64,000 nt of DNA from Crambe crambe. Its lineage: Eukaryota > Porifera > Demospongiae > Poecilosclerida > Crambeidae. Shown here piece by piece: positions 20,009 to 55,335 of the stretch. Position 1 is the stretch's first letter. Each line of letters begins with the position of its first letter. The stretch is from positions 5,890,001 to 5,954,000 of the forward strand of contig OZ004592.1 in NCBI GenBank assembly GCA_963924555.1, in the 5' to 3' direction. Position numbers and translations under genes: made by a program. The notes beneath the pieces are model-generated. The model searched no databases, was not told where the DNA came from, and saw nothing but the letters and a program-made list of their open reading frames with translations.

Positions 20009-22548
20009 TCAGACTAGGCCAGTGATTTTGAGGAAAGCATCGACTTTCTTGTCCAGCCATTCTCGATGCTTGAACTGAAGCAAGTCTTCTGGTAGAGCCT
20101 TGAATCCCAGCTTGCATCCCATCAATGCTCCACACACTGCAGCATTACTGGAAAGCAAATAACAGCACTTGCTTTAATATGTTCACACACTACAATGTTG
20201 GTATAGTAACTAGCTAGCTTATTGTTTCCCCCCCCCCTCCCCCCAGGGAATTTTGATAGATATACATACATACACTTGGGGTTTATGTATAGCGGAGATT
20301 GCAGAATCTTGGAACAATACATGGCCTTATATGAAGCTATTCATTATTTAATCTCATGCAGTTCATTTACTCTTGTGTATTTGCACACCCTTTACTTCCA
20401 TATTATAACCTTGGGGACCCAGTGTACCAGGTGAAAAATTTTGGAATCTCCCGTAGCTAAGCTACATATAGCTGCTTTGTACCTGTCAGCATCTCCACCC
20501 TCCATGATGACTTCAGTGATGGTTTTTCTGAAGTCTGTTCCTACACGCAGGCCATAAAAACCAGAGCCTAATGCCTTGAATGTGTATCCAATGGAGCTCT
20601 TTCCGTCCAGCTTCAGATTCTTCAGAGAACTGTTAATGTGTTTCTCCATTTCCTTCTGCTGATCTTTATGTTCAAGACACTTGTTAGCTTCCTATAGCAG
20701 ATATTTGAAGGGAAACAGCATGATGTAAGGTACCTACATTTGGCACAGTGGAATTTTTGAATAAAGTTGTGCATTGTAAAAATAGTGTCCCCTTCGTAGG
20801 AAGTTTCATGGCATATGTAACTCACTGCAATTGATTTCTTGATTAGAGTAGAAAGTTGATCTTTCTTCATCGGGTTATAAGCTCCTTGCAACATCAGTGC
20901 AATCTGAAAGCATCATTCAATCGTGAAACGGCAGTCGTCAATAGCTCTAAGCTATCCTATAATAACCTACTGCAGTGGTCACTGCAACACAACTCGCTGA
21001 ACATCTAGGATCTGCATGCGTGACCTTGGCAATGTTAATGGTGTTGGCTGACACTTTGGAGATGTCTATAGAGAGAGAGAGAGAGAGCTGCATGAGCATA
21101 CATTCAAGGGAATTGTCACAAATATTAACATACATCATGCCACCATACTATTACTGCATGCAATAGTCAATCAAAATTAATAGCTATAGAGTCCATGGAA
21201 AGCAAAATAGTTCCCCAGCCCATTATAACTGGTATAGTTATGTACCATTGAAATTGAATGCTCCTAATATTGAGGTCCTCATGATAGCACCATTGGCTGC
21301 AAGGTATCTCCTGCATGCATGCAGAATGGAGTTATAATTATTATTATCTTACCCATGCATGCACTCACCCTGAATTCTCCCAAACCGTTTCTGCTGCTTT
21401 TACTGGTTCCGTAAGAAAGTTATGACTTTGTAAAGTGCGTGAAACTGTTAAACCAATTCCCATTCCACCTATGGATAGGATAGGGGATTAAGAAATCAAA
21501 TTCCTCATTCCACAGATTAGGAACATGAATGATATTACCGATGTCTCCTAGTTCCTTGAAACCATGACGCATCCAGTTGTACATTCTTGAAGCAAAGTCC
21601 AATTGGTCGACCTTCCCATTCAACTCTGTCAGCATCAACATAATCAGCAACATCTACAACAAGGAAAGCACAAAGTTCTCATAAAATCATACCAGATGAT
21701 CACACTCTCATACGACTTACTTGGTCTGTATCATCTGTCCAATCCCCTTGCTCCCACCTTCAGATAAACAAAATCACTACATGAAATCTTTATAGTCCAT
21801 GGCATAGATAGCTAGCTATGGTATAGGCTACCTTGAACGATGAAAATCTTGTACTATACTGTCATAGGTCAACTCCTTCTTGTAATATCCCATTGCTTCT
21901 TTCTTGTTCATAAATTCAGTAGCCAGTCCTGCGAGAAATTATTACATATAATCCTGCTGAAGGTCTGTGTGCTCCTAGATCTAAAGATATGATGTTCTTA
22001 CCAAGGGCGTCACCAATAGCCTGCCCGTATATCACCCCCTTGATTCGATCAACAATATCCTCCCTCGTCAATTTAGACCACCTCTCAGTGTAAACATGAG
22101 AACTCGTCCCTTCTTCACCTTCTGCTTCAATCTTCTCCACTTCCATTTCTCCACTGCCATTTGCCGTCTTCTCTTCATCTCCGGCTCCTGCTCCAGTTTT
22201 CTCAACTTCCATTTCTTCATTTGCCTCCCCCTCCTCCCCCTGGTCTTGCTTACTCCCTTCATCATCTTGATTGACTCCTTCCTCACTTCTACTACTACAA
22301 TATTTCTCCTTCAAATCGTCTGCCAGTTTTGGGTCGATATTACTGACAGCTACCATTAGGACTTCAGGGAGATTCGACTGCTCCCTTTTTAGCCAGAGTC
22401 TCAGGACTTTCTCCAGATTATCTTCATCTGAGCCGCCTTCGGACTTTAAGGCCTCTATCTCCTCCTGAGGGAGACTCAAATGGCGGCTCAAGGCCTCCCA
22501 CTTGCTGGCTATGCTCTTCAACTCCTCTGAAACGACGTCTGGATTCAT
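20009..22548 (-). CDS. Death-domain + ADP-ribosylglycohydrolase (ARH) fusion
   Basis: Predicted to remove ADP-ribose from proteins or from ADP-ribose derivatives, coupled to a Death-fold interaction domain. Exons, minus strand: 22002-22548, 21832-21928, 21721-21757, 21539-21653, 21369-21468, 21246-21310, 20971-21065, about 20738-20903, about 20483-20687 and 20009-20147, about 521 residues. Residues ~5-85 look like a Death domain (KWEALSRHLSLPQEEIEAL, then KVLRLWLKRE, then VAVSNIDPKLADDL). Residues ~86-165 are an acidic linker. From ~170 the ARH fold follows: VIYGQAIGDALG, the metal-binding WTDDTDQ, GAIMRTS, and GGDADSNAAVCGALMG with the second Asp pair. All expected Mg-binding acidic motifs are present, so it should be active. 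Which ARH subfamily is unclear; the boundary between exons near 20690-20740 is the least certain splice. Divergent from the PARP gene. Confidence 0.88.
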
Positions 22549-22833
22549 GATTTTTTTGATTTTTTTTTTGGAAAGGTGGGTGTGGCAGTCAATTCAACCA
22601 CGCCCCTATGATTATATGTGATACGCCTGGTGTGTCATCTGTTAATGTTGGGTGCTGTGCTGTGATTCACACTAGCGCATCTTGACTTCTGCTGTAGAAC
22701 CTAGTTCTTCAGGTGCAGTTTTTGAGTTATTGTGTAATGCTGTAGAGTTACAGAAGTCATAGGTAGCCACATTAAACTAAATTTTTGGGAATTCTACAAT
22801 TATTAGAAACCTTTGACAGTCTTCCCCTGGATC
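22549..22833. promoter_or_regulatory. Divergent promoter, ARH eraser / PARP writer
   Basis: The 285 bp between the two start codons must hold both promoters. I see no textbook element apart from a T run near 22553-22570 and a CCACGCCCC box at about 22597. Confidence 0.55.
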
Positions 22834-25800
22834 ATGGCTGATTTACCACCATCAGTTGATGAAGGGGGAGGGGGAGAGACTAGACCTGGAATTCGCCTTC
22901 AGTGGCCTGCAAGTGACAGGCCATTCGACGTGGAGTTGGAGAAAGACCTACTGGAGTCTCGACTAGAAATGAAAATAGGAGAAGAAGACAGCGTCAAGAA
23001 GATTTCCTTCTCTGATGACAAGATCCAAGCCTATGTGGAATTGGAGAATGAGTCAGGTACTGTGCTATTATTAGTGGGTACACTTTACATGACTTCCAAC
23101 AGACATAGACAAAGTGCTCTCTAGCTCACTGAATCTGCGCAAGGGTCAGCCTCCACTAGTTATGGAGCGCTTTGACCTCTTGGAGGTGTGGCGTCCCTAC
23201 TTGATAGTGAAGGGGTTGGAAGAATGGATGATAGAGGACGTTGACATGATAAAGGATCATTTCCAAGCTGAAGCCAATGGAGCTCAGATACAGTCCATTG
23301 ATGTGCATGGATCTGAAACTATCATTATGTTTGCTAGTCCACAAGGTACAAAACCTGCTTTGGGGTCACTGGGTGTATGTGGAGGTCACTGGGTGTATGT
23401 GGAGGTCACTGGGTGTCTGTGGGGGGGTGGGTCACTGGGTGTATGTGGGGGTCAATGGGTGCTTGTGGGGTGGGGAGTCACTGGGTGTATATGGGGGGGG
23501 GGGGGGGGGGGGGGGTCACTGGATATATGTGGGGTGTATGTTTGGGTGATCAGATAATGACTGCCAACCCCTGTTGTTGTTGTTGTTACTGCTGTTGTTA
23601 TTATTTTCATGATCAAAGTATGCCATTATCACTACTGAACTCTGAACTCTGTTATTTGTCTAGTTGCTTTGAGATTTGGATCAAGCACTGAGTTACTTGG
23701 AATTGTGATTCAACTTGAAGTTGGGTATACCTCATCAGCTCCCAAGGTGGAGAAAGAGGTGTTAGCTGTGAGAGGTTTACCCAGAACAAAAATTCCTGTG
23801 GAGAAGATGGAAAATGCTTTATTGAAATACTTCTCAAGACATTCAAAATTGGAAGCAACTGAATGTCGAATAGTAAAAGGAGTTGGTTATTTAACATTTG
23901 AAGACCCTAAAGGTAAGGATAATACTGGCTACAGTTGAATATCTCAATATGGATGCTTTTTGGGGAACCTGAAAAAATGCCTTATTATTAGAAGAAGTTC
24001 CTTTTTTTTTCCTATTAATACACACTGACAATGGCAAACAGAAAAGTATCCTGATTATGGAGATGCAGGGTTTCATCTAGGAATTCACCTTGGGGGGGGG
24101 GGAAGCTCACCGATTGCGTGGGCATAGGCCACAGCAGGGGAGGGGGATGTGCCCCCTCCCACATGAAGCACGAAGGCAAAAATGCTTAAGTATCCCTTTG
24201 AAGTTGGGTCGGTTGGGGGGGGGGCAGAAGTTGAGCTGTTTGTGGGGGGAAGCTCCCCCCTCTGCGCCCCCTAGATAAAACCTTGGAGATTGGAGTCCGG
24301 TTCCATCATCAAAGACTCATTATTACACATACAGCTGTGAAGTTAATACTATCTAACTCTCCTACTGCTTCCTTTATTGCTGGGAGTGCCCTGCAGTTGT
24401 CTGCAATTCCGATATCACAGATGAAAAACTCTGCAGCTGATGATAATTCTGGAGTGTCTGCTTCTCCACCTTTGCGATCAGACTCGACTACATCCTGTGG
24501 TTCCTTGTTCTCCCCGAGTAGTTCTTCAAGTTCTATGCATATGAAGGCTGGGTTTAGCAGGGAGTTATCACGTGACTCCTTTGATTCCGTTTCCTCTTCT
24601 GAAAATCAACCTATCTTTATCTGTGATGTGTCAGATCCTGAAGATTCTCTTCGAGTTCAAGCTTCCTCCACTTCTGATAGGCAGCATAGCTTTGGACGAC
24701 CACCTTCCTCTCAACCTATTCAGGTATCTTCTACTGCCCCTCAGCAGAGACAGATCCAGAATGCTATCTCTACTCTACCACCCGTGCCAGAAAACCCCCC
24801 AAAGTTTGGTGAGTCCACTGCGCTAAGTTTGTATAATAATTCCACAGAGTTTGTATAAAGAATTCCACATATGAGTGTGTTGTTAATGGAATTAGATAAC
24901 TCAACCACAACTACCGCATGTACTAAAAGGCAATTCCCTACAATTGTTCAGCTATCAATATGTCTATTTTTGTAGCAGCTGCCCTGAAGTTATTATTATT
25001 ATTTTAATTACAGGAGTAAGCCCCATCAAATCAGATGAACACATGGCAGTTCAAGATATAGACACATCATATGATCACACCAAGGAGGTCCAATTAGAGT
25101 TCAAAAGTCATCCCACCAGAGTTCACATCGATGACGTTCCACCTCATAAGAGGGACAGGTCCTTGATTGAGCTTTACATGAAGAGCTTAGCATTTACTGA
25201 GTGTACTGTGAAGCAGTATGGGAAGTCATTCATGGCCACCTTCCAACAACCAATAGGTGATACATACTTAGTAATATGGTTGTCATTTGTATGTGGCTAT
25301 GATATGATATGGTGTCTTGTGGATGCAGATTTCCAGAAGTTGAAGGAGAAAAGTCGAAAACAACACCTGGACTCTTATGTGTTATCTTTGTATGCACTGG
25401 ATTCTACTAAACAAATCTTGGTCTCTGGACTAGGGACCACGATACCACCTTATTTCGTGAAGACTCACTTTGAACTATACTCTGGAAAAGAGTCTGTGGA
25501 CGATGTGAAGACTTTACCGTCAGATAGAGCTGTGGTCACTTTCAAAGATTCAAAAAGTAAGTTCCATGTTAGCCGAGTGACTTTATTATTAGTGTAATAT
25601 TTATAACAACAGGTGTTGATGTGATCATGAGTGAACCAAAGTGCATGCAACTTGGTGACACCAGTATCTCTATCACTGAATACTATGATTTCATGTCTTA
25701 CGATGAAGAAGACTGCAGTGACGTCTCACCATCTATGGCTGCATCACACTCTCAGCAACAAGTGATTCCTCCACCCCAACAACCCCCAAAGTATAAATGG

Positions 25801-28800
25801 GGTCCTGTAGTTGAAGTAGTCGGCAAAATGAAAGCCGCTTGGCTTGAAAGCACCTTGACAACGTTGAATAATGCCTTGAAACCTATTCAGGCTGAGGGTT
25901 CCATGGAAGCTGATTCATCGGGAACTCCATGGCTGAAGGTTGAGCCTCTTGATGGCTCTGAAGAAATGAGCGACTGGCAAAAACAAGTAAAAGATGTTCT
26001 GAATGAGCATTTTTCAGATTATAGAGAGGAAGCTATACCTCTGCCTGACTACTGTCAAGCAGACATAATGAAATCCACTGAATTGTTAGATGACGTCACA
26101 GTTACATCTGCTGGCAGTTCATTAATCATAGGTGGTGGTAGTGCATCTGTGCAAGAAACAATCCTTAAAACTAAAGACATGATAAGTGACTTTGAAGTCA
26201 GTACAGAAGAGAAAACTTACCCCAGAAAACACATAAATTATCTGAAGAAATTCTGTAAGCACGTACTAGATTCCATTCCTGACTACACTTTGGATCCAGA
26301 TTTGAAAGTGATAGTGGTTTCTGGCAACAAGAAAGTGAGAGAATGTTTTTGGTCGAAAGTTCAATCAGAGATTAGTAATATCCAAGAGAAGTCTATAACA
26401 GTCCAACATGAACACTTTAAGTTGCTGTCATCAAGTCGAGGGAAAGAGAGAATTGAAGAGATGATTGGCATGAAAGCTATCATGTTTGAGCTGGAAAGTA
26501 ATCCTCCTGACTACACCCTGTGTTTTCTTAGTCCACCACATGTTGATAAGGAAACACTAAAAAGGATAAGAGATAAATTTAAAACTTTACTTATATCCGG
26601 GTCATTCTCTATCAGCTATGAAAAGCTAAGGTTGTGTAGTGATAAAAAGTGGAGAGAACTCGTTGAAAAAATACAGAAAAATAACTTTGTTTTGGTTACA
26701 GTTGAAGATTCATCTAAAACAATCATTGTAACTGGTGAACCAATTCATATGAATGATGTGATTGACAAGATTGAAAATTTCCTATCAGAGCATACGAGTG
26801 TTGAAGAACGACTGAACATTGATTTCCACAAATGGAGTGTTATGAAGAACAACTTCAAGGATGAGCTTGATAAAATCAAGCATGCTATGGGAAAGCGTGT
26901 TAAAGTTACATGGCCTGAATCAAAGTTGCAAACTAGTGTTTATATTGTTATTCGAGGTGATCCAAACAAAGTAGATGATGTTAAACTCAAATTGGAGGCA
27001 TTGCAAAGTGAGGTATGTTCGAAAGAAGAGAAACTCTGCAATATTCCAGCTGCCATAAAAGTAGTTGAGAGCATGGAGGACAGGATTCGAGTGCTTGAAG
27101 GCCAGTATGGAGCATGTATCGATGTTTCTTTAACGTGTGATGACAGATCCGCTTCTTCTTCACAAAGTTCTTCTGTGGCTCCATTGAAACTGTGTAGTGC
27201 CACTTGTCCCAATGAAGTTCGCCTTTCAGTCTATGCCGGAGACTTTACCAAGCATAATCACGTTGACTCTATCATCACCTTTATACCCCCGAATCCCACA
27301 TATCAGGAGGAAATCATTAAAGCTCTATTTTCAGCTGGAGGTCCTCCCTTTCAAGATGACTTCAAAAGAAAGATTGGTCAGTTTATCCATCAAAGTCCTG
27401 GAGAGATATTCAAATCTTTCCATGGTCACCTGCAGTGTAATGAGCTTTTTCATTGTTTCCTGCACCCCTGGGTAAATGGGTCGTCTAATGAAGAATTCTA
27501 CCTCGAAGAGTGCCTAAACAAAGCACTCCACAGCACTAGACGCTGTAACACAATCCTTTTCACTCCGAGTTCTCTCAAATATCCTGCTGATGTCTTTGTT
27601 AAAAATATAATATCTTCGCTCTGTAGCAACTCGTCGATCTCTTCCGACATGACAGTGGCTGTGTACGTGAATGATATTTCACAGGCCCAAGAATTTGAGT
27701 GCCAACTTAAGCAGAATGACTGCCGCATAATAACCCCAGTGTCTACTCAGCTGACATTGCCAGTCAATTCATCAGCTCATCAAGTTCATCAGGTAGCAAG
27801 GTCAATTTCAAGTCCCATCAGCTCCTATATCACACTTTTAAGAGGAAGTCTTCTCGAACAACAGGTACTAGTATCTATTAGCTTCGTCATTTTTACAAAC
27901 ATAACCTTATATTTATATAATATGAACAGGCTGAAGTTTATGTCAATTCCACAAATTCAAATCTTGACCTGAAGACAGGAACCCTTTCCAATATTCTCCT
28001 GAAAACTTGTGGAGATGAGTTGCAGAAGAAGTGTTCTGAATATGCTCCTCTGAAGACAGGAGATGTAGCTGTGACTGAAGCAAAGAATCTGAAGTGTGAT
28101 TTCATCTATCATGTTGCTCTCCCTGATTTCAAGTCTGATCATAATGCTTCAAGGGTAAGTAGAATGAAGGAGTACATTGCTATTAATAACAGTAATGATA
28201 AATTTCGTAGAAATTCAGGACTACTGTACAAATGATTCTACGAACAGCGAAGGAAAAGGGTGCTAAATCTCTGGCCATTCCCTCACTTGGAGTTGGGAAC
28301 CTCAACTATCCAGCTCAAGTTTCTGCCAAAATTCTCTTTGAAGAAATCATAACATTTCATGCACGGAATCCTGGATCCGACGTTAAGTACTACTTGGTGG
28401 TGTATGAAAAGAATATTCATCAAGAATTCAGCAAGGAATATGCTCAAAAGATGAACAGTGCACCTCCTCCACGAAAGGTAATTTTATCTTATAGCTTCTA
28501 CTCTACAAAATTTGATTAATTTTGTTTAATAGAGTCTCATCAAATCTAAAAAAAGTGGTGGCAGTACTAAATTGAGTGTTGAAAAATCAGATATTTCTGA
28601 CGAAGATGTAGACATTGTTGTAAATACGACCACTGAAAATATGAAGCTCGATGAGAATGCAGTGTCAAAGGCAGTATTGAAGAAGGCAGGACCTATGCTG
28701 CAGAGTGCTTGTGATCAACTGGTCAGTAGTGGACTCAAGCTGGATCATGGTGAAATTGTCACCACTAAATCCTATGGCAGCCTCCAATGCAAGAAGATTA

Positions 28801-30594
28801 TACACGCTCACTTACCGCCTCTCAGTGCAACTTCAAAAGCAGGTATTGATCATTTTTCTCTTATTGTGGATATTGTCAAGAAATGCTTGGCTAAAGCTGA
28901 GAGTGAAGGAATGGAATCGATTTCATTTCCAGCATTTGGATTTGGCCAGGGTGGATACTCTGTCAGTCAAGTGGCAACACCCATGCTCACTGCATTTCGA
29001 GATTTCGGGCGATCCAATCCTAAGTCAGTTCGTACTATTAGAATTGTAATATTCGACTCTGCCTTGCATAAGGAATTTTTGGATTTTTTTGTCAACTTTT
29101 TTAAAGTCGATATGGCAGCTCCCCGTAAGTTGATACATAATCTTACGTCCAAATTGAGCAAAAGTGGTTCCAGTGACAATTCTGTGGAGTTACAAGATGG
29201 TGTGGATGCCACTACTACTGCTGTGGCACCTCCTAGAAGATATGATGAACCAATTAGCAATCCTCTGGTTTCGTTCAAAATATATGCCTCCTCAGATGGA
29301 AAATGTGATGAAATAGCAAGTCAACTGAAACAAGTGATCAAAGATAACTGCAAAACCGAGGAAATTAACGATCCAATCATAGCTAACCTGATCGATGATG
29401 ATATAGCAGACATTAAAGGAATAGGAAGTCAACATCAAGTGCAAGTTAATGTGATGGCTGCTATAAACCAGATACAAGTGCTTGGAGAAAAGAGTGATGT
29501 TGCACTTGCAGTGAAGGATATTACAATAATTATTACTGACATCAAAAAGGCTGAAAGTGAACTGAAATCTTATCAGTGGCAAACAGAAAGTGATAGTGAA
29601 ATCGAGCCTTACTCTGATGCAAACGGTTTCAAATTGGAGAGAGCTCACATGAAGAAACTTTCTGCACTTGAGATGATTATTGATGGCATTGAATTGGTCA
29701 TTGATCTTGACAGAATGGAGGAGAGGAGCAAAGAAACAGGCGATGTGAGAAAAGTGGCACGAGTTCCCAAGAATCCAAACAGTGGGTTATCATAGGTGCA
29801 TAGAGTAATTTGAATATGATTTCCTTCCCATTGCAGTTAAACTACCTGACACTTGGGAACCTCAACCACAGGAAGCAGGTGGTAAACCTGAAACTATGCA
29901 CATGTTTGAAGTTGCATCAGGTTCAGCAGAATTCCAAGAAGCTTTGAAGAGATTCCACGACACCATTGGTTCAACCACAGTGCAAGTTGTTAAACTTGAG
30001 AGAATCCAGAATCCTAATGAGTATCGCAGGCATAGTACCCTATTTGAGACAATTTCTCGAAAACACCACAATAAGAAGATCGAAGTGAAGCAGTTGTTTC
30101 ATGGGTGTAAGGAAGACAGCGTCAAACCAATAGCCACTCAAGGATTCAACAGGAACTTTGCTGCTGATGCAAATGGTAAATTTTATGCCTTGCTACAACT
30201 ATTCAGAAGTAGTGCATGTTGTCTCGAGGACTTGATTTGCCAAGTTGCAAACTCTTTGTTTTATCACATTGTATTTATTTCTTACACTGTAGCGGCCTAT
30301 TATGGACGAGGTGTGTACTTTGCTCTCAACTCCAGCTACTCTGCCCACCCTAATTACTCAAAGCCCAACAAGGATGGCCATCAGTTTATGTTCATCAGTA
30401 GAGTCATCATTGGTGAGTATACTGTCGGCAACAAGACTATGAAAGTGGCCCCTGCCCTCCAAGAAGGCTCTCTCGAGGTGTTTGATACTTTGGTCGAGAA
30501 GAAGGACAACCCGACAATTTTTGTGGCCATGACAGATGCACAAGCTTATCCCGAATACCTCATCACTTTCAAGATTAATAAAGGCAAAAGTTAA
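22834..30594 (+). CDS. PARP14-like mono-ADP-ribosyltransferase with macrodomains
   Basis: Predicted macro-PARP: transfers single ADP-ribose units and binds ADP-ribosylated targets. Exons: 22834-23056, 23103-23345, 23664-23912, 24335-24808, 25014-25256, 25329-25556, 25613-27864, 27930-28154, 28211-28477, 28533-29781, 29837-30175, 30293-30594; they sum exactly to 2098 codons. Residues ~1-550 hold RRM-like units (LAVRGLPRTKIPVEKMENAL, then GYLTFEDPK) and a serine-rich linker. The middle (~550-1080) resembles the KH-like array of PARP14. A degenerate macrodomain (~1085-1255) precedes two clearer ones (PSLGVGNLNYP; PAFGFGQGGYS). A WWE-like stretch (YQWQTESDSEIEPYSDANGF) leads to the ART domain: LFHGC (His), YYGRGVYFA (Tyr), and NPTIFVAM with Ile in the third triad place. 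That H-Y-I set predicts mono- rather than poly-ADP-ribosylation. The C-terminus AYPEYLITF matches PARP14/15. Confidence 0.9.
23360..23520. repeat. G-rich minisatellite and 22-base G run in the PARP intron
   Basis: About seven copies of a 20-23 bp unit built on GTCACTGGGTGTATGTGG, ending in an uninterrupted G run near 23487-23515, sit in the intron 23346-23663. The coding (non-template) strand is the G-rich one. Confidence 0.85.
24085..24265. other. G/C-homopolymer-rich intron segment
   Basis: The intron between PARP exons 23664-23912 and 24335-24808 carries several G runs of 7-10 bases (around 24092, 24213 and 24244) and CCCCTCC tracts. I see no coding content. Confidence 0.6.
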
Positions 30595-37137: not shown

Positions 37138-39270
37138 TTATATTGTTTTATAATCACACCTTTTCCTAGGGGGTCCATCAATTTCTAGTGGAACGAAACC
37201 CTCAGGTTCAGGGGGGATAACTTCTGAACCAGTTAGAGCTGGAACAGATACTATATACAATGAAAATAAATTTGTAGCGGAACCTTTCATTCATAGTTCG
37301 TTGCATAATACCTGGTGAGAAGTCAACGATCTTTTGTTGGCAGTCAGTTGAAGATTTGAACAAATATAAACGCACAGTGTTACTCAGTGTTATGCAAGTG
37401 TAAATTTATACCTTCTCTGTATTGCTGGCTCCATTCGGTTGTAAGATTAGATCAAGGGGGAGTTCCTCCTCTTCAGAGGCAGCTATGCTCTGTGAGGGTA
37501 ATAAAATAGGTGTCTCCAGTCCAACTACATACTCAAACTCACTGGAGACCATGTATAAGGGCATACTCAAATGCCTTATAATAGAGGATAAAGCGTGTAT
37601 ATACTCAAACTCACTGGAGACCATGTAGAAAATGGTTTGGAATTGGCAAATGGGCTGGAGAGGACCTGGGAGACTGGTGCTGATGAGCTGGTGGAAACAG
37701 AGTGGCCATTAGATGTTAACAGGTTTCTCTTCTCCCTTGAAAATGAGAGCCAGCATATTCTGTTTTTACTTACCTCTGTCTCAGCTTTTCTTCTGGTACC
37801 TTTAATATGAGAACAACAGCAATAAAATTAACAAAAAAAGAACAACTCCAGTCTTGATCACATACAGTTTTCCTTGAATAAGCATTCCTGTACTCATCCG
37901 CTTCAATGTCTAGTAATTCCACATGTCTCTGGACCGAGGTCTTCCAGTATTGGTACAGTCCTTCCTTCCCACCCATCCCAACCTGGCGTAGGGATCGCTC
38001 CAGGGCATTTTGGAACCCCAGACAACTGCTGTCCCCCAAGTTATGGTCAACATTCACTCTGAGAATCTTGCCAAAGTTGGAGAGAAAACTTCCCATTATG
38101 TCTGACAGTACTGCTAGAGCACTTGGAGAAGAACCTAAGAGAAATACTAGTACTTTAAGACCCCAAGGCTGCCGATAAGGAAAGGGTCTGGTAGGGACAG
38201 CAATTTCTCACGTTCATATCCAGAAAAGGAACAAATGGCTGCTGTGCTTTTTTGCTGCAACGTGTCGAGATGATGCTGATTGAGCTGAAGGGGAGGAATT
38301 TTCCTGTGAAATTAATATAATTATTATAGTTAAAACTGAAGCATGCAGAACTTACACAGGTGAACTGAGTGGGTCGTTAGGTTGAAGTCTAGCTTTCAGG
38401 TTACTGAATCTAGTTGGCTTCTCTGGAAGGGGCTCATACGAGTCACATTCCTGTATAAGATTATTGCACCATCTACATGAATCAGTATATCCACATAAAG
38501 CGAACCATGTTTTGGTGGTCTGATAGCATTAACAGCAGCTCTTTGACCTCCTTGATATGATGCTGCAGATCAATACAGTGTAGCACTGGATTGCTTCCTC
38601 CTCTGTCTAGAGGATGGTCCAGGGCAGCAGAAACACTAGAGCCAGAGGGAAAGACACAAACATAGACTGGAGGTCATTTGAATGAAGATCCTACCCTTTG
38701 GTTTGTGTTGATAGAGGAGGGGATGGAGTGGGTTCAAAGAGTCTCGGAACGGAACAAGTAAGAGGTCCAGCTTTCCACCCCTTCTGCCATAGAGGCACCT
38801 TTGGTTCTTGCTCCCGTTTCTCTTCTATTTCCCCCATGAGCTGTACCTCTGAAAGGAGGAAATAGTGCTGTCCCTCCACACAACACCTATACATTCAATG
38901 ACATACTTTCTTCATTTCTTTGGGGGATATCTGGTGTCATGGAAGGAGAGTCATTCACAGGAGGAGTCGAGGGAAGACCTTCAAATGACGTAGGCTGTTC
39001 ATGAGACCAGTTGTCTTCGATTCTCCTGGCACTACTGCCAATACCCACACTCAATTCAAACCCACCACCACGCTGACCACTCGCACTTGAGTTTGTCTTT
39101 CCAGAACTAGAAGGTATGCTCCCATCATTTACATTACAAGAAGAGATGTTAATGGAAGAGTCCTTTTCTCTTCTGCTTCCTTTGTGTTGCTTTTTCCCGT
39201 GGTCTTTTCCATGATGGCTGGATCTCCCTCCATGGGTCTGATGGGAATGTCTGCTACCCCCACTGGACAT
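37138..39270 (-). CDS. SUPT7L: SUPT7L-like SAGA/STAGA subunit (histone-fold)
   Basis: SUPT7L is a core subunit of the SAGA/STAGA histone acetyltransferase coactivator. The gene starts with exon 38907-39270 (start MSSGGSRHSHQTHGG), then exons at about 38695-38848, 38530-38640, 38355-38455, 38200-38300, 37850-38135, 37400-37790 and a last exon ending with the TAA at 37138. The diagnostic part is a bromodomain-associated histone fold: SALAVLSDIMGSFLSNFGKI, then LERSLRQVGMGGKEGLYQYW, followed by a helix ending DIEADEYRNAY, which parallels the EVGIGSVLSLQKFW region of SUPT7L. The first ~120 residues are His/Ser/Lys-rich and disordered, unlike vertebrate SUPT7L. The C-terminus is PPRKRCDYKTI and an AATAAA signal sits just beyond the stop (37125-37130). 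Exon edges are approximate. Confidence 0.68.
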
Positions 39271-39375
39271 CTTTTTGTCTAAAATTTCATTTCGTATAAT
39301 TAGATGAACATTTGGCACGTGGCATGCCTTGATATATCTACGATCGACGATTTCTTGTTTCTTCATAAGCTTGAA
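39271..39375. promoter_or_regulatory. Divergent promoter SUPT7L/NOA1 with an E-box
   Basis: 105 bp separate the chosen start codons. A CACGTG E-box is at 39316-39321. An in-frame ATG for NOA1 at 39304 lies inside this interval and would lengthen the leader by 24 residues. Confidence 0.6.
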
Positions 39376-41766
39376 ATGAACGTCGCGGTATTCCGAGCTT
39401 TTAAGTACGCACTCTCAAGAGGGTTGAGACCTTCTCTGAATTCGTCTAGCACGCCTCTGCATATCAATCTAGGTCGAGGGTGGGTGTGGTCTCACTGCCA
39501 CGCCTCCTCTTCACTGAGAACCTTCCATCTTCGATATTTGAGCTCTTTTGGTGCTAGATACTACTCCCTAAAGGAGGTGACTCTGACATGTAAGCCAGAT
39601 TGTGAAGATCAAACTGAGAAAGAGGAAAAGCAACAAGGGAAGACTTTTTCCCGGGAACTGCCTGACAAGTACAACTGCAGTGGGTGTGGTGCTCCTTTGC
39701 AGTCAGCTTTCCCCGAACGTCGTGGGTACATTCCAGAGGAGAAGCTAAAGGAGTATTCGGAGTTGATCAATGATCCAAAAAGCGTTCTTTTGGAGGAAGA
39801 CAATGAAGAGCAAAATGTCGCTGAGCAGAGTTTGACTGAAGAGGAACAAAAGACTCAAGAGGAGGAAGATGACAATAGTGATGATATAGAAGATTACTTT
39901 CCTGAGACACTGGATGACCAGTCAGAATCAAAGCGTACTGTGACTGAGTTGATCTGCAAGAGATGTTTCTCTCTTAAACATTACAACACTGCTCAGAATA
40001 TCATTCTCGAGAGCGATGATTATCTCCGTCACCTGGCAAGTTTGAAAGACAAGAGAGCTCTTATCATCATTTTGCTTGACATTGCGGATTTTCCCAGCTG
40101 CATTTTCCCAAACTTAAACACTCTCATATCTCCTAAATCATCTGTGTTGATAGTGGCCAATAAAATCGATCTTTTCCCTAAAGGCCTTCCAATGAGCTTC
40201 TGGAATCGATTTAGGAATTATGTAGTCAAGGAGTGTAGGGAAAGCAGCCTTGGTGATTGTGATATTGTTGGTGTTCGTTTTGTCAGCGTACGGAATGGAA
40301 CTGGAGTCATTGAACTCTCAGAAGAGATAGCACGAAAATGGGGAAACCGTGGTGATGTGTATCTCCTTGGATGCACCAATGTGGGGAAGTCGTCACTCTT
40401 CAACAAATTGCTGGTGCATCTTTGCGGTTCCAAGCCTGGAGAATTGAATGAGGATAGCAACCTCCTCACTCCGAAGGCGACCATTTCCCTGTGGCCTGGG
40501 ACCACTTTGGGACTGCTGAGTTTCCCTTTGATGTCCATGGGAAAGAGGAGGAGGCTCTTGAATCAGCAGAAAAGAAGGGAGGAAGAAATAGCATTGGGCA
40601 TCAGAAGTATGTTGAATAGTAGTTTAAGAAACCCGTGTAATCTATATGTGTAAACCTCAAGAAATAGGCCTATCATATTTTTGAGTAGAGGGGTCCCTTT
40701 ATTGAGCAAAACCCCTTGATTTCGTAAAAATACTTATCATCACTGTATTATCCCTTCAGAATTCGATGAGTACCAGGAAGGGGATGACTTCAGTAGGTTG
40801 GTCCAGAAGCATGAAGATACTGAGGAAGTGGAAGCAGTGGATGTGGAGGGTCTTGTCCAAGTGGAAGTGGAGGGTGTGCTGGAGGAGTTGGGATTATGGA
40901 AAAAGAAGAAACCTGTAGTGATTAATGAACCCCCTCAGAATAGATTCTGGCTCCACGACACTCCAGGTGCCATCAATGATGCTCAGGTGATGGGAAGACC
41001 CCTTAGTATTAGTGTGGGCTGTTGGCCTTTAATAATTTGCAGATTTCTGAGGTGTCAGGTTATGTTTATTTTTTCAGCTGATCAACTACTTGACGACTAA
41101 AGAACTGACCCTGGGGCTCCCCAAGGTTCCTCTAAAGCCAAAAACATTCATACTGAAGCCAGGACAATGCATGTTCCTGGGAGGTCTTGCTAGACTAGAC
41201 TACCTTGATGTAAGAGTTAAGAATTTTAAGACCCACAATGTTAATGCTTTCACCACATTTTTATAGGGACCAGATTCTGCATATTTCACCGTGTTCACCT
41301 GGTCTTATATAAATATCCATGCAACCAAGATGGAAATGGCAGACATCCTATACCAGAGGCACATGTGTCAGCCATCTTCTCTTTTCAAAGTAAAAATTGT
41401 CTTGTTTTTAGACATTTTAAAGATTATTCCTCCTTCGTCTCTATATAGCTACCCCTGGATTCTGAAAAGCGAGGTACATCCTTTCCACCACTCGAGCACG
41501 AAACAATCTCTGTCCGAGGGACAGGATGGAAAAGAAGTGCAGCCGACATAATTCTTTCCAGTGTTGGTTGGGTGGCAGTTACCATGAGAGATGGAGGAAT
41601 AATCATGCTCAGAGCACATACCCCTAAGGGGAAGGGGATACATGTGCGACAACCAGCTCTGTTTGACGAGGCAATTAATCAGAGGGGCAAACGAGAACGC
41701 CATGGGAACAGAACAGCTTTCTTAGGTTCTGTGAAGCGAAGGAAGCGTAAAAAAATGATTCCCTAG
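39376..41766 (+). CDS. NOA1: NOA1, mitochondrial circularly permuted GTPase
   Basis: NOA1 is a YqeH-type GTPase needed for mitochondrial small-subunit ribosome assembly. Exons: 39376-40606, 40760-40986, 41078-41209, 41267-41389, 41449-41766, giving 676 residues, near the vertebrate length. A basic, Arg/Ser-rich N-terminus fits a mitochondrial presequence. A zinc-binding pair follows (CSGCGAPLQS, then CKRCFSLKHY), separated here by an unusual acidic insert. GTPase motifs come in permuted order: NKIDLFP (G4), GCTNVGKSSLFNKLL (G1), then LWPGTT (G2) and HDTPGAIND (G3). The C-terminal segment has ILKPGQCMFLGGLARLDYL and a lysine/arginine-rich end. An upstream in-frame ATG at 39304 is possible but MNVAVFRAFKYALSRG is the better presequence. 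It ends 81 bp from the PSMD8 stop. Confidence 0.93.
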
Positions 41767-47136: not shown

Positions 47137-48902
47137 ATGACAAGGAGTTCCATAACGGTGCGTTGGTGTGTTCTACTTCTTGCCTTGTTCACCGTATTGG
47201 GAGTTGTCCTGATCCATCTCTACCTCAAAAACATCCGGATAAAACACTTTTACTCTCAGGTAATCTAGCGAGCAAGCAAGTTACTGGATGTGCTGCTAAC
47301 CTCATTTCCTCATGTAGCTAGTATCTACCCTATATATTTCATGGATTTTGTTTCAACTCGTGTTTTTGTCTATTCTAGCCCCCTGTTCAAAGTGAAGTTA
47401 ATTCATCCCAGTATGTCCCCACTTTTAAAGCAAAAGAAGAAGTACATAACAATCAGGATTTAGCCAGCAATTCAAACTCTGCTCCACCAGTAAACAGTGA
47501 CATCCATTATACCCCAGTCGTTTCAAGCCATCAAACTGCCACAGAACACAGATCTTCAGTTAACATATCGACAGGTGCTGCAACAGTCAAAATCCACTCC
47601 ATATTCAGAGGTCCCAGTGTTTTATATGATCTTGTGAGATGTAGTAGGTCAATGGGCATACCCGAGGAAAGATTGCAACAAAAGAAGGACCATATTGTTG
47701 AAGTGAGCAAGAGAGCTGGCACATTCTTGGAGGAAATTCGTTCCTTACTTCCAGAGAAATTTTCCACGAGATACAAGAATCCGTGCTGGTCAGCAGAACA
47801 GCCCAAGGATTATCCAGGGTGGCAACATATGGTGTTATCTTACTTCCATTATGGAGTCAGGCAGCTGAGACCTGGAAGAGCATGGAGATTTTCCCGTTTC
47901 CTTAGCAAACCAGTTAACGACAATTCAAACGGCAGCATTACTCTTTGTCTCCCTTATTTCTTCTTGGCAGGTTTTCCAAAGAGTGCCACTACCACCATCC
48001 ATAATGCTCTGGGAAAACTGCCCCAGGTTGTAACGCCCACAGAGAAGGAGCCACACTGGTGGACAAGAACTCTTAAAATTGCCAAATCCAAGACCTTCAA
48101 TTCTGAATACTTCCCCATTGCATTCGTGGCGTATACTCTTTTTTTTACCGAATTAAATTCAGAAGTGAGTAAGAAATGGGACAATACCACTCAGTTCATT
48201 ACTTATGATGGAAGTCAATCAACTCTATGGGATTCTAACTTCTACTATGATGGGCTGGACTACTGTGCAATGCCTGTAGTAATTAGCAGGGTCCTACCCA
48301 ATACTAAATTCATTGTGGTAATGAGGAATCCAATAACTAGATTGTACTCGCACTTCTTGTACAGTTTCAGATACCATTTCGGCAGTGTGAGGAACTGGCC
48401 GTCAAAGGTGAGAAGAAGGGAAGAGGAAATATTTCACACACAAGTGACTACAGAAATCACAGGTTTTCGTGAATGCCTTAAAGTTCTGTCAGTATTTGAA
48501 TGTACTAGTGTGGGAATGTACAATGCATCTAAGAGAAACGCTGAATTTATGGATGTGGAGAGCCAAGTGGGGTACAAGTTGATGATAGGTTTATACATAG
48601 TCCACATTAAAAAATGGCTCGAGTTCTACCCGATCGAGAACTTCTTGTTTATCAAGATGGAGGACATCTCAAAGGATTCTTTCGGGACCATGTCCAAGAT
48701 CACCGAGTTTCTAGGATTGAGTCCCATTACATCAAGAGAAGTTGCTGAGAATTTACTAGAGGTAAAGATGAACGTCATGCGTGAAAGTCATGTCAAGCCA
48801 ATGGCAGCTCAGACCAGATCAATGTTGGAAGAGTTTTACCAACCTTATAACCTAGAACTAGCACAGCTGCTTGAGGACCAACATTTTTTGTGGAACGAAT
48901 AG
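47137..48902 (+). CDS. Golgi carbohydrate sulfotransferase, CHST15-like
   Basis: Predicted type II Golgi enzyme that uses PAPS to sulfate a glycan, closest in feel to CHST15 (GalNAc4S-6ST). Exons 47137-47259 and 47379-48902 give 548 residues. A single membrane anchor lies at residues ~10-30 (VLLLALFTVLGVVLIHLYL), followed by a variable stem and a catalytic domain. The 5'-phosphosulfate loop is AGFPKSATTTIHNAL (about residue 238), and the 3'-phosphate motif is VVMRNPITRLYSHFLYS (about residue 353) with the Arg and Ser expected. The late segment WLEFYPIENFLFIKMEDISK is typical of the family. The acceptor sugar cannot be told from sequence. It is convergent with the fibrinogen-like gene, 244 bp apart. 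Confidence 0.87.
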
Positions 48903-49146
48903 CTAATTGCCTTTTTATATAATTATTATTTATTTAGCTATTTTGATCATTATAAACATCATCCTTGACAACAAATGTAAAATTTAAACTCCTTAACTAA
49001 AATAGCTAATGTGAAATCATGACACCAAAAGGGGGAAAATGACAAATTTACTATCATAACCAAGAGAAAATGTATACTAACTAGTTTAGTTACAGTAGGC
49101 CTAGCTATATGAACACACAATCAACTAACTGGGTTTTTTGTTTGTT

Positions 49147-50475
49147 TTACTGAACATATAACATGACCTTCTCAATTGGAGTATCTTCATCATCACGACC
49201 CTCATCTGCACACACCCTCATCTCGATATCATCAGTGGTTGGGTTTGGCAGCTGCTTATAGAACCAAGGAGGACTATTGAAGGAGCAACAAGTGCTTTGT
49301 GGTCCACAACCAGCTCCATCCCATAATGGATCACTTCCATAGAATACATTTTGAGAATGATTGTCCCTACCAGTGTCGCAGAAGTAATCTCTTCCAACAA
49401 ATGCTGGAGGACGGCTTGCATAATTCCTTGTGTTGATATTAGTACATTCACAATTGAAACGGGCACCTGCTGCACTTTCAATAACAGCTGCAGCAAAAGT
49501 CCAGATATGCTGCCTTGTTGGATTTCCATGAGTAAGACTAACGCCGTCCACATAGTAAGTGTCGATATTTTGTGGACGCAGACCATTAGAGTTACTAAAT
49601 GAGTCTGTAGTACCAAACTGGTAAGCTTTGATCATTCCACATACTTTTGTATACTGTATGGTATCAGTAGGGAATGTCACTGAAGAACAGCCTCTACCCT
49701 GTAAGCCAATTCCACATGTACGTCTCATTGAGTCAGTGCGCAATGTGAGAGTGCTAGGACACTGCGTACTGTTATTCGTCATGTCCAATTCTGCCACTCT
49801 TATCCACCCTCCAGTGACTCCACCACATGACCTGGTCATGTCACAGTATACATTAACAGCAGAACCATTGGAGGACCTGATCCAATAGTGGCCCGAGGGA
49901 GAAGAGGGAACAAATCGAAGAATAGCAGCACATGAAGCAGCAGGATATAAACCAGACTCTGTAACATGAGTTAAGTGCTGGGTTATATTTTCCAGTGCAG
50001 AATAGTTTTGACTTAGTTCTCTTAACGTGTCATTTGAAATATTCAGCATCTGTTGAATGAGTTCGTACTGATCATTCAACATTGAAAATCTCATTGCTAT
50101 TGAAGAATAATTTCTACTTAGCTCTTTTAACATATTATTATCACTTGAAATGTTCAGCATCTGTTGGATGATGAGTTCATATTGATCATTAGTTGGAGCT
50201 GATGGTAAATAGGCTATTTCAGACTTTATCTCTGAAATTTCAATGAAGGCAACTATAAAGCATGCAAAAACTGCAAAAATCAGCAAAATGATCAGAGATC
50301 CAAGAGCCAAAACACCGAGTCTAATTTTGCTTCTGGCTTTACTTTGAGTGACTTCTTCATACTTAATACCTTCAGCAGGACGCTGTGAGGCAGCTGTAGT
50401 TTGATAGCAACTGTTCTCTTGCAGCTGGAATTTTTCTCTTATGATTTCTTTCACTTCAGCATATTCTTGGTTCAT
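49147..50475 (-). CDS. Type II membrane fibrinogen-like (lectin-like) protein, copy A
   Basis: Single-exon gene, 442 residues. A cytoplasmic tail of ~52 residues precedes one membrane helix (LGSLIILLIFAVFACFIVAF), then a stalk with two copies of a unit like YELIQQMLNISNDTLRELSQ, then a Cys-rich domain from about residue 180. This begins SCAAILRFVPSSPSGHYWIR and contains YCDMTRSCGGVTGGWIRVAE, WTFAAAVIE, DPLWDGAGCGPQSTCCSF and PPWFYKQLPNPTTDDIEMRV. It resembles the start of fibrinogen-related domains and a family I associate with sponges and cnidarians; no function is known to me. Several N-glycosylation sites are present in the stalk. A surface recognition role is inference. Lack of introns is unusual beside its neighbours. 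Confidence 0.85.
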   Translation of the reverse strand: MNQEYAEVKEIIREKFQLQENSCYQTTAASQRPAEGIKYEEVTQSKARSKIRLGVLALGSLIILLIFAVFACFIVAFIEISEIKSEIAYLPSAPTNDQYELIIQQMLNISSDNNMLKELSRNYSSIAMRFSMLNDQYELIQQMLNISNDTLRELSQNYSALENITQHLTHVTESGLYPAASCAAILRFVPSSPSGHYWIRSSNGSAVNVYCDMTRSCGGVTGGWIRVAELDMTNNSTQCPSTLTLRTDSMRRTCGIGLQGRGCSSVTFPTDTIQYTKVCGMIKAYQFGTTDSFSNSNGLRPQNIDTYYVDGVSLTHGNPTRQHIWTFAAAVIESAAGARFNCECTNINTRNYASRPPAFVGRDYFCDTGRDNHSQNVFYGSDPLWDGAGCGPQSTCCSFNSPPWFYKQLPNPTTDDIEMRVCADEGRDDEDTPIEKVMLYVQ

Positions 50476-50633
50476 GATGTTATAGAATTAATACCTAGCT
50501 ACCAACTTCTACAACTGACAGTCTCACTGACCAGGGTGGATTTTTAAAGGATGTCGGAAACAAACAAATAAACAAAAAAAAATACGCATGCGCATATAGC
50601 TTGTTTGCTTTTCCATTTTACTACATTGATCTA

Positions 50634-52554: not shown

Positions 52555-53575
52555 TGTAATGTTCACCGTATTGGGAGTTGTCCTAATCCATCTCCACCTC
52601 AAAAACATTCGGATAAAACACTTACCCTCAGGTAATTGATTAATTCATGTGCATGACTCACTGCTAATGTCATATCTACATATATTTCATGGATTTTGTT
52701 TCAGCTCATGTTTTTGTCCCTATTCGAAATGAAGTTCATTCACCCCAGTATGTTCCCACTTTTAAAGCAAAGGAAGAAGTACAAAATAATCAGGATTTAA
52801 AGGTTTCTGCTTCACCAATAGACAATTATACCCCAGTCATTTCACACCATCAAACTGTCACAGAACACAGATCTTCAGTAGGTGCTGCAACACTCCATAT
52901 TCGGTGCTTTATATGAGATGTTAGTAGGCCAATGGGAGTATACCCGAGGAAAGATCACAAGGACCATATTGTTGAAGTGAGCAAGAGAGCTGGCACATTC
53001 TTGGAGGAAATTCATTCCTTACTTCCAGAGAAATTTTCCACGAGATACAAGAATCCGTGCTGGTCAGCAGAACAGCCCAAGGATTATCCAGCATATGGTG
53101 CTATCTTACTTCCATTATGGAGTCAGGCAGCGGGAAGAGGAAATATTTCACACACAAGTGACTACAGAAATCACAGGTTTTCGGTGTTTGAATGTACTAG
53201 TGTGGGAATGTACAATGTATCTAAGAGAAACACTGAATTTATGGATGCAGAGAGCCAAGTGATGATAGGTTTATACATAGTCCACATAAAGAAATGGCTT
53301 GAGTTCTACCCGATCGAGAACTTCTTGTTTATCAAGATGGAGGACATCTTAAAGGATTCTTTCAGGACCATGTCTGAGATCACCGAGTTTCTAGGGTTGA
53401 GTCCCATTACATCAAGAGAAGTTGCTGAGAATTTACTAGAGAAGAAGATGAACGTCATGCGTGAGTGAAAGTCATGTCAAGCCAATGGCAGCTCAGATCA
53501 ATGTTGGAAGAGTTTTACCTAGAACTAGCACAGCTGCTTGAGGACCAACATTTTTTGTGGAACGAATAGCTAATT
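52555..53575 (+). pseudogene. CHST15-like sulfotransferase pseudogene, copy B
   Basis: Part of the membrane-anchor exon survives at 52562-52632 but without its start codon. The stem and catalytic exon resume at about 52705. An 8-bp deletion near 53092 shifts the frame, and a 552-bp deletion at 53133 (equivalent to 47866-48417 in copy A) removes both PAPS-binding motifs. A 22-bp deletion near 53183 and an early stop after NVMRE (53466) follow. Remaining frames are relics. Confidence 0.92.
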
Positions 53576-53799
53576 TCCTTTCATATAAAGATCATTATAA
53601 ACATCATCCTTGACCACACAGATGAAAATTTTGAACTCCTTAACTGAAATAGCTAATGTGAAATCATGACATGAAAATGACAAGTTTACTATCATAACCA
53701 AGAGAAATAATATACTAACACAATTATACTAGTTAGTTACTAGTTACTAGGCCTAATATGAACACATGATCAACTAACTGGCTTTTTTGTTTATTTGTT

Positions 53800-55335
53800 T
53801 TACTGAACATATAATATGACCTTCTCAATTGGAGTATCTTCATTATCACGACCCTCATCTGCACACACCCTCATCTCGATATCATCAGTGGTTGGGTTCG
53901 GCAGCTGCTTATAGAACCAAGGAGGACTATTGAAGGAGCAACAAGTGCTTTGTGGTCCACAACCAGCTCCATCCCATAAGGAATCATTTTCATAAAATAC
54001 ACTTTGAGAATCATTGTCTCTACCAGTGTCGCAGAAGTAATCTCTTCCAACAAATGCTGGAGGACGGCTTGCATAATTCCTTGAGCTGATATCAGTACAT
54101 TCACAATTGAAACGGGCACCTGCTGCACTTTCAATAACAGCTGCAGCAAAAGTCCAGATATGCTGCCTTGTTGGATTTCCATGAGTAAGACTAACACCGT
54201 CCACATAGTAAGTGTCGATATTTTGTGGACGCTGATCATTAGAGTTACCAAATGAGTCTGTAGTACCAAACTGGTAAGCTTTGATCATTCCACATACTTT
54301 TGTATACTGTATGGTATCAGTAGGGAATGTCACTGAAGAACAGTCTCTACCCTGTAAGCCAATTCCACATGTACGTCTCATTGAGTCAGTGCGCAATGTG
54401 AGAGTGCTAGGACACTGCGTACTGTTATTTGTCATGTCCAATTCTGCCGCTCTTATCCACCCTCCAGTGACTCCACCACATGACCTGGTCATGTCACAGT
54501 ATACATTAACAGCAGAACCATTGGAGGACCTGATCCAATAGTGGCCCGAAGGAGAAGAGGGAACAAATCGAAGAATAGCAGCACATGAAGCTGCAGGACA
54601 TAAACCAGACTCTGTAGCACGAGTTAAGTGCTGAGTTATATTTTCCAGTGCAGAATAGTTTTGACTTAGTTCTCTTAACGTGTCATTTGAAATATTCAGC
54701 ATCTGTTGAATGAGTTCATATTGATTTGAAAGTCTTAATACCACAGCAGAATAGTTTTGGCTTAACTCTCTTAACGTGTCATTTGAAATGTTTAGCATCT
54801 GTTGAATGAGTTCATATTCATTTGAAAATCTTAATACCACAACAGAATAGTTTTGACTTAACTCTCTTAACGTGTCATTTGAAATGTCTAGCATCTGTTG
54901 AATGAGTTCGTACTGATCATTCAATATTGAAAATCTCATTGCTATTGAAGAATAATTTTGACTTAGCTCTTTTAAATCACTTGAAATGTTCAGCATCTGT
55001 TGGATGAGCCGTTGAATGAGTTCATATTGATCATTCAATATTGAAAATATCGAATCATTAGTTGGAGTTGATGGTAATTGGGCTATTTCAGACTTTATCT
55101 TTGAAATTTCGACGAAGGCAACTGTAAAGCATGCAAAAATTGCAAAAATCAGCAAAATGATCAGAGATGCAAGAGCCGAAACGCTGAGTCTTCTGGCTTT
55201 ACTTTGAGTAATGTCTTCATTCTTAATACCTTTAGTAGGACGCTGTGAGACACCTGTAGTTTGATAGCAACTGTTCTCTTGCAGCTGGAATTTTTCTCTT
55301 ATGATTTCTTTCACTTCAGCATATTCTTGGTCCAT
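53800..55335 (-). CDS. Type II membrane fibrinogen-like protein, copy B (longer stalk)
   Basis: Single-exon paralogue of the gene at 49147-50475, 511 residues and about 90% similar over the Cys-rich head. The cytoplasmic tail and membrane helix are conserved. The stalk has four to five copies of a ~30-residue unit (YELIQQMLNISNDTLRELSQ, then NYSAVV) against two in copy A, each with NIS/NDT/NYS glycosylation-like motifs. The head starts SCAAILRFVPSSPSGHYWIR and all Cys seen in copy A are kept, so both should fold. It is the only gene intact in copy B, which suggests selection has kept it while the neighbouring sulfotransferase decayed. Confidence 0.85.
   Translation of the reverse strand: MDQEYAEVKEIIREKFQLQENSCYQTTGVSQRPTKGIKNEDITQSKARRLSVSALASLIILLIFAIFACFTVAFVEISKIKSEIAQLPSTPTNDSIFSILNDQYELIQRLIQQMLNISSDLKELSQNYSSIAMRFSILNDQYELIQQMLDISNDTLRELSQNYSVVVLRFSNEYELIQQMLNISNDTLRELSQNYSAVVLRLSNQYELIQQMLNISNDTLRELSQNYSALENITQHLTRATESGLCPAASCAAILRFVPSSPSGHYWIRSSNGSAVNVYCDMTRSCGGVTGGWIRAAELDMTNNSTQCPSTLTLRTDSMRRTCGIGLQGRDCSSVTFPTDTIQYTKVCGMIKAYQFGTTDSFGNSNDQRPQNIDTYYVDGVSLTHGNPTRQHIWTFAAAVIESAAGARFNCECTDISSRNYASRPPAFVGRDYFCDTGRDNDSQSVFYENDSLWDGAGCGPQSTCCSFNSPPWFYKQLPNPTTDDIEMRVCADEGRDNEDTPIEKVILYVQ

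Follow-up and report, generated by a model that had tools for sequence, protein, structure and literature searches.

In vertebrates, PARP14, PARP9 and DTX3L make up a circuit of ADP-ribosylation that is linked to interferon. Human PARP9 and DTX3L are separate proteins, encoded by head-to-head genes with an interferon-responsive bidirectional promoter (PMC11251048). Macrodomain 1 of human PARP14 is a hydrolase (PMC10470015; activity also in PMC10499325), and active macrodomains are marked by the motifs N(6x)GG[V/L/I] and G[V/I/A][Y/F]G (PMC10470015). Six PARP14-like proteins have been reported from Amphimedon and duplications of PARP14-like genes are known in sponges (PMC4245714); sponge PARP14 paralogues are also mentioned in a 2026 review (PMC13224862). 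Among ADP-ribosylglycohydrolases (ARHs), three DraG-type genes are reported from a coral proteome (PMC3750612), and sponge ARHs with added domains are known in the form of an ARH3-like protein with WD40 (PMC4245714). The locus described here lies in a 64,000-nucleotide stretch of Crambe crambe DNA (the window, C15:5890001-5954000; the genome searched was the 143-Mb assembly of 119 contigs). It contains a gene for an ARH with an N-terminal Death domain (Death-ARH) and, facing it, a PARP14-like gene. The reading that we prefer, and hold at about even probability, is that these are two real, intact-looking ADP-ribose genes that probably serve different marks and are neighbours because genes are densely packed here, and that a dedicated pair is not needed.

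Both gene models were assembled manually, with open frames and splice signals as the guide. Modelled exon by exon, the Death-ARH gene has 10 coding exons on the minus strand (22548..20009), encoding 493 aa without internal stop, and the PARP14-like gene has 12 on the plus strand (22834..30594), encoding 2097 aa, likewise without internal stop. The last bases of the stop codons are 20009 and 30594, respectively. All 20 introns (9 in the Death-ARH gene, 11 in the PARP14-like gene) are GT-AG and in frame. The two ATGs stand head to head, 285 bp apart (22549-22833), and by this ATG-to-ATG measure the genes fall within the 1-kb limit of a bidirectional-promoter pair. The coding exons, in window positions, are:

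22548-22002, 21928-21832, 21757-21721, 21653-21539, 21468-21369, 21310-21246, 21065-20971, 20903-20826, 20691-20483, 20147-20009, minus strand: Death-ARH (gene model)
22834-23056, 23103-23345, 23664-23912, 24335-24808, 25014-25256, 25329-25556, 25613-27864, 27930-28154, 28211-28477, 28533-29781, 29837-30175, 30293-30594, plus strand: PARP14-like gene (gene model)

Hand-made models could be wrong, for example if Death and ARH belonged to separate genes or the PARP gene were a broken copy. The donor of exon 10 of the PARP14-like gene was picked from several alternatives, and its intron 11 (117 bp) has no stops and could be retained. Such an error is nevertheless very improbable, given the uniform in-frame GT-AG introns, the single open exon that holds Death and the start of ARH, the coverage of the entire Pfam model by ARH, and the alignment of the PARP domain to PARP14 without insertion at intron 11. 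Artefact or contamination was ruled out; the spliced genes lie amid ordinary animal genes (cyclophilin, harmonin-like, PSMD8-like).

The features of the Death-ARH protein are as follows.

22372..22533, minus strand: Death domain, residues 6-59 (PF00531, 26.6 bits in the spliced product and 27.4 bits in the exon alone, cut-off 22.6)
20084..22038, minus strand: ADP-ribosylglycohydrolase domain, residues 171-469, through introns (PF03747, E 1.1e-59, 203 bits, profile 1-287 of 287)
21727..21738, minus strand: TDDT metal motif, aligned with TDDT of DraG and MJ1187
20483..20499, minus strand: GGDADS metal motif, aligned with GGDADT of DraG 2woc/2woe; the S codon is completed by base 20147, in the next exon

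The metal motifs of the ARH domain are intact. The E of GDALGLATEF, TDDT and GGDADS align with DraG (2woc/2woe) and MJ1187 (1t5j), and E, TDD and DxD[ST] are presumably the metal ligands of the ARH/DraG superfamily. The fusion of Death and ARH is independent of the splicing guess because the Death domain and the start of the ARH domain lie in one open exon. When the Death stretch was searched against PDB sequences, designed helical proteins came out on top (E 0.0013), with true Death domains only at E 0.4-1; since that search is unsupportive on its own, the Death assignment rests on Pfam. The N-terminal Death domain would bring the ARH into Death-domain assemblies.

For the ARH domain, the nearest PDB entry is archaeal MJ1187 (E 2.5e-18), followed by bacterial ARHs and DraG. 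ARH3 chains matched weakly (E 1.2e-4 and weaker), and ARH1 chains gave no match up to E 0.01. The only NCBIfam matches were DraG (82.7 bits, cut-off 337) and Tri1 (73.4 bits, cut-off 490), both far below the equivalog cut-off. Because these are its nearest characterised families, Death-ARH is classed as DraG/Tri1-like and probably acts on arginine-linked ADP-ribose. It has in common with the DraG and Tri1 hydrolases the whole ARH domain and the metal motifs, including GGDAD[ST], and differs from them by the N-terminal Death domain, an acidic linker and the low scores. The sponge ARH3-WD40 protein likewise carries an added domain, but Death-ARH adds Death and is of the DraG type, not ARH3. No second Death-ARH was found in a genome search with the whole protein (23 matches, 9 to itself and 14 in the Death part only). 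Scans with exact 8-residue patterns, one over prokaryote genomes and one over viral contigs, gave no close relatives of the ARH domain; patterns of this kind pick up only such relatives and are silent on a distant origin.

Tri1, which bears the name ADP-ribosylarginine hydrolase, serves as an immunity protein that counters a bacterial toxin. Death-ARH might accordingly be a stand-alone antidote to, or sensor of, bacterial arginine-ADP-ribosylating toxins, tied to Death signalling in a genome whose Death-domain families are very large, with an unrelated PARP14-like neighbour. We consider this unlikely: a toxin target has no direct evidence, the Tri1 match shares the low score of the DraG match, and a true ARH1 is already present for arginine marks.

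The features of the PARP14-like protein are as follows.

25406..25695, plus strand: RRM_PARP14_3 domain, through one intron (50.1 bits, cut-off 24)
27184..27672, plus strand: macrodomain 1, degenerate (Pfam 13.8 bits alone, cut-off 22; third of the three Macro stretches in the product)
27942..28333, plus strand: macrodomain 2, in two exons (Pfam)
28620..28979, plus strand: macrodomain 3 (Pfam 65.5 bits)
29574..29762, plus strand: WWE domain (26.2 bits, cut-off 21.1)
29923..30594, plus strand: PARP catalytic domain, H-Y-I (Pfam 70.8 bits; PARP14 the best PDB match)

With Pfam on the spliced product, Macro scored 148.3 bits in all over three stretches; KH_PARP14_5 (12.9 bits) and KH_PARP14_8 (12.5 bits) stayed under their cut-offs of 23 and 27. 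Against the PDB, the catalytic domain matched human PARP14 best (E 2.1e-36) and PARP10 next (E 1.2e-32), and PARP14 chains lead the 47 matched sequences. In the alignment the catalytic residues are H, Y and I, the I standing opposite an L of PARP14 at what we take to be the third position of the PARP catalytic triad. The H-Y-I type fits a mono-ADP-ribosyltransferase. Like human PARP14, the protein has an RRM, three macrodomains, a WWE and a PARP domain. The difference lies in macrodomain 1: the two hydrolase motifs mark it in the human protein, as a property of human PARP14 and no family requirement, and are missing here.

The 2097 aa contain neither N(6x)GG[VLI] nor G[VIA][YF]G. An hhalign comparison with five sibling macrodomains nonetheless recognises macrodomain 1, at probability 93.8 and E 1.8e-7 over 83 columns. 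With both hydrolase motifs gone from it, erasing in cis by the protein is improbable. Among the siblings, the one at C21:2814 kb retains both motifs in its first macrodomain, and another macro-PARP, at C1:7388 kb (L015, C1:7388255-7388611), lacks both there. Genome-wide, both motifs occur in 4 of 28 macrodomain matches (C21:2814 kb, C19:5503 kb, C15:6551 kb and C15:6566 kb), many of the 28 being exon fragments unable to show both.

Up to this point the gene models, Pfam and PDB alignments agree with an earlier note on this DNA, which had described an ARH with intact metal motifs facing a PARP14-like writer with macrodomains, 285 bp between their start codons, and a Death domain fused to the eraser; the last is upheld by the Pfam score above cut-off and the shared open exon.

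Three side observations concern the PARP14-like gene. Intron 2 (window 23345-23663) is a minisatellite with GGTCACTGGGTGTATGTGG-like units and a long G run. Intron 11 (30176-30292) is stop-free in frame; if retained, it would leave the frame intact and add 39 aa within the catalytic domain. Part of the gene recurs as a scrambled copy at C15:6068-6074 kb (L013, C15:6066001-6076000), in 7 pieces of 80.9-88.7% identity. Stops interrupt the macrodomain-1 part of this copy; its WWE and PARP parts lie in an open frame of 530 aa, and a further frame, of 409 aa, is by eye reverse-transcriptase-like.

The chemistry of the two enzymes argues for separate marks. PARP14 automodification is not removed by human ARH1 and is removed by ARH3 and macroD2 (PMC10470015). 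MacroD1, MacroD2 and TARG1 act on automodified PARP14, suggesting glutamate links (PMC10499325). As Death-ARH is probably arginine-type and ARH1 spares PARP14 automodification, Death-ARH is not an obvious eraser for a PARP14-like writer. The proposal of the earlier note that the hydrolase removes the modification added by the PARP finds no support in the nearest families, DraG and Tri1, or in the behaviour of ARH1 (PMC10470015). In the preferred reading, the PARP14-like protein would be a full-length mono-ADP-ribosyltransferase that writes mono-ADP-ribose and binds it via macrodomains 2 and 3, macrodomain 1 no longer erasing. Death-ARH would remove arginine-linked ADP-ribose within Death-domain assemblies, and writer and hydrolase would most likely act on different marks. 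A search for ecto-ART writers (PF01129) was uninformative, with no match in the genome nor in the controls.

The interval between the start codons was analysed as a candidate regulatory region.

22549..22833, no strand: interval, candidate shared promoter (gene models; inverted boxes GGGTGTGG at 22578-22585 and CCACGCCC at 22598-22605)

The two inverted boxes follow the pattern CCACRCCC, which we take to be an Sp/KLF-type box; the 64-kb window contains 7 such boxes against 1.5 expected. Folded as single-stranded DNA, the interval scores somewhat better than its shuffled versions, beating 198 out of 200 (z -2.61), and the inverted boxes form one stem. In Amphimedon, start sites are enriched in Sp1-like GC boxes (PMC4773876). 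The interval is not CpG-rich (observed/expected 0.27; 130 of 224 tiles have the same or a higher value), and a CpG-island-like promoter was not seen in it. A repeat or mobile element was ruled out; a 283-bp query matched only itself genome-wide. These features fit a promoter, and the two genes may share promoter activity. The co-expression from one promoter that the earlier note proposed finds no support in the CpG content, although the interval does carry the two inverted boxes. The human PARP9-DTX3L pair likewise places a macrodomain-PARP gene head to head with the gene of an ADP-ribose-signalling partner, but there the partner is a Deltex ligase and here it is an ARH; shared control and physical partnership have been demonstrated for the human pair only.

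The genome search gave five ARH loci: a clear ARH1 (E 6e-119), an ARH3-like locus (one exon, E 4.3e-23), the window gene, and one each on C19 and C12. A PARP or macrodomain match lies within 100 kb at one of the five, that of the window; for the other four, the gap to the nearest such match on the same contig amounts to 101 kb, 135 kb, 1.0 Mb or 4.2 Mb. The 42 PARP matches were grouped by eye into 38 loci, and the genome searches for ARH, PARP and macrodomains give lower bounds. No ARH copy was found beside the partial PARP copy, about 150 kb from the window pair, in the 13 kb searched, nor on contig C1, home of the motif-less C1:7388 kb sibling, in the genome ARH search. For the C21 and C1:7388 kb siblings, the upstream surroundings were inspected by eye only, from open reading frames of at least 120 aa. 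Within this genome the pairing, which the earlier note had put forward as a system, is thus a single occurrence, and the partial PARP copy is without an ARH.

A number of points weigh against mere neighbourhood. With 5 ARH and 38 PARP loci, about 0.0013 head-to-head ARH/PARP pairs would be expected per genome, on Amphimedon figures that may not be those of the host. The adjacency would be unlikely by chance had it been named beforehand, which was not so. The in-cis eraser motifs are lost exactly where an eraser gene adjoins, which fits a functional pair. The arginine preference of Death-ARH is drawn from families whose NCBIfam scores fall far below cut-off. ARH3, likewise of the ARH fold, did remove PARP14 automodification (PMC10470015). 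ARH-type enzymes can reverse phosphate-end RNA ADP-ribosylation, a modification that PARP14 is able to produce, in tests whose substrates included PARP14-modified RNA (PMC11833690).

One alternative reading is a co-regulated module, in which a 285-bp promoter is shared, the writer lacks its own eraser, and a Death-recruited ARH would erase in trans during immune signalling. The head-to-head arrangement, the low chance expectation, the lost motifs in macrodomain 1 where the C21 sibling keeps both, the placing of 2 of the window's 7 CCACRCCC boxes in the interval, and the precedent of the human PARP9/DTX3L promoter (PMC11251048) speak for it. The chance figure is weakened because the pair was chosen post hoc among many meaningful combinations, the figures are borrowed, and head-to-head neighbours are common: in the compact genome of Amphimedon 18,054 genes (45%) are head to head, and 11,379 have start sites less than 1 kb apart (PMC4773876). 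Eraser loss was rejected as proof of pairing; the C1:7388 kb sibling has lost the motifs too, with no ARH found on its contig. With the pairing found once, the partial PARP copy unaccompanied, an ARH that looks arginine-type, separate ARH1 and ARH3-like genes elsewhere in the genome and an interval that is not CpG-rich, the module is somewhat unlikely.

The Death domain adds little to this comparison. The Death family is very large, with 965 first-look candidates genome-wide, 150 of them scored, and clusters on C15, C16, C17, C18 and C21. The 14 Death-part matches of Death-ARH led to 8 loci that were fetched; 10 open reading frames from 6 of them were scanned, L036 and L038 being left out. At this level, the nearest Death relatives have ZU5 matches at 4 of 6 loci (2 over cut-off) and ankyrin repeats at 2 of 6. 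Because the family is so large and its nearest members are at ankyrin/ZU5-type loci, the Death domain alone says little. On the same two grounds, the equation of Death with immunity was not accepted, and the link that the earlier note drew from the Death domain to immune signalling of the eraser is not supported.

Death domains stand beside ADP-ribose enzymes in two architectures in this genome. The second is seen in a tandem pair of genes, some 640 kb away from the pair in the window: L024 (C15:6549001-6556000) and L025 (C15:6564001-6570000). L025 (C15:6564-6567 kb) has 8 exons on one strand with 7 of 7 introns GT-AG and encodes 968 aa from an open exon onward, its 5' part lying outside the model. 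It combines a macrodomain with both hydrolase motifs (98.9 bits), Death, RING (up to 42.1 bits) and a Deltex C-terminal (DTC) domain (185.7 bits). Its Death domain scored 19.9 bits in the whole product (cut-off 22.6) and 25.3 in the exon alone. In the paralogue L024 (C15:6549-6552 kb), analysed at exon level, the exons for macrodomain (93.1 bits, again with both hydrolase motifs), Death (35.3 bits), RING and DTC follow one another as in L025. In a PDB search the macrodomain of the macro-Death-RING-DTC gene was nearest to PARP14 chains 3vfq and 3q6z, the latter of which we take to be PARP14 macrodomain 1, and to PARP9 chain 9qyd. PARP9 and DTX3L are separate proteins in vertebrates; L025 resembles both combined in one chain with a Death domain. 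No description of a protein joining Deltex, macrodomain and death domain was found in the literature search, judged by titles.

In the most far-reaching reading, erasing of PARP14-type marks could have moved from macrodomain 1 of the writer to Death proteins (Death-ARH and the macro-Death-RING-Deltex proteins), so that marks would be removed or ubiquitylated in Death assemblies, as an early-animal PARP14/PARP9/DTX3L circuit. We regard this as distinctly unlikely. Some fusions of Death to ADP-ribose enzymes are expected because Death domains are so many.

Both genes belong to known kinds, of which the Death-ARH fusion and a PARP14-like protein devoid of in-cis eraser motifs are variants. No description of a Death-ARH protein or of a divergent ARH/PARP14 pair was found in the literature searched, most subscription papers being outside its scope. 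If the same kinds of enzyme were coupled to Death domains in a sponge, with writer and eraser split into divergent genes, an older form of the vertebrate circuit and its death-fold link would be directly testable. If the two are mere neighbours, the locus nevertheless illustrates cleanly how a PARP14-like protein can lack an in-cis eraser and how Death and ARH can be fused.

Elsewhere in the window, positions 47379-50487 and 52917-55359 form an apparent local duplication: in each unit, a minus-strand frame with a fibrillar-collagen-C-like stretch comes after a sulfotransferase-like frame, which is shorter in the second unit. A further divergent gene pair may lie at 38887-39414 (minus strand) and 39304-40653 (plus strand), where two long opposed frames overlap and the plus-strand one carries a GTPase motif.

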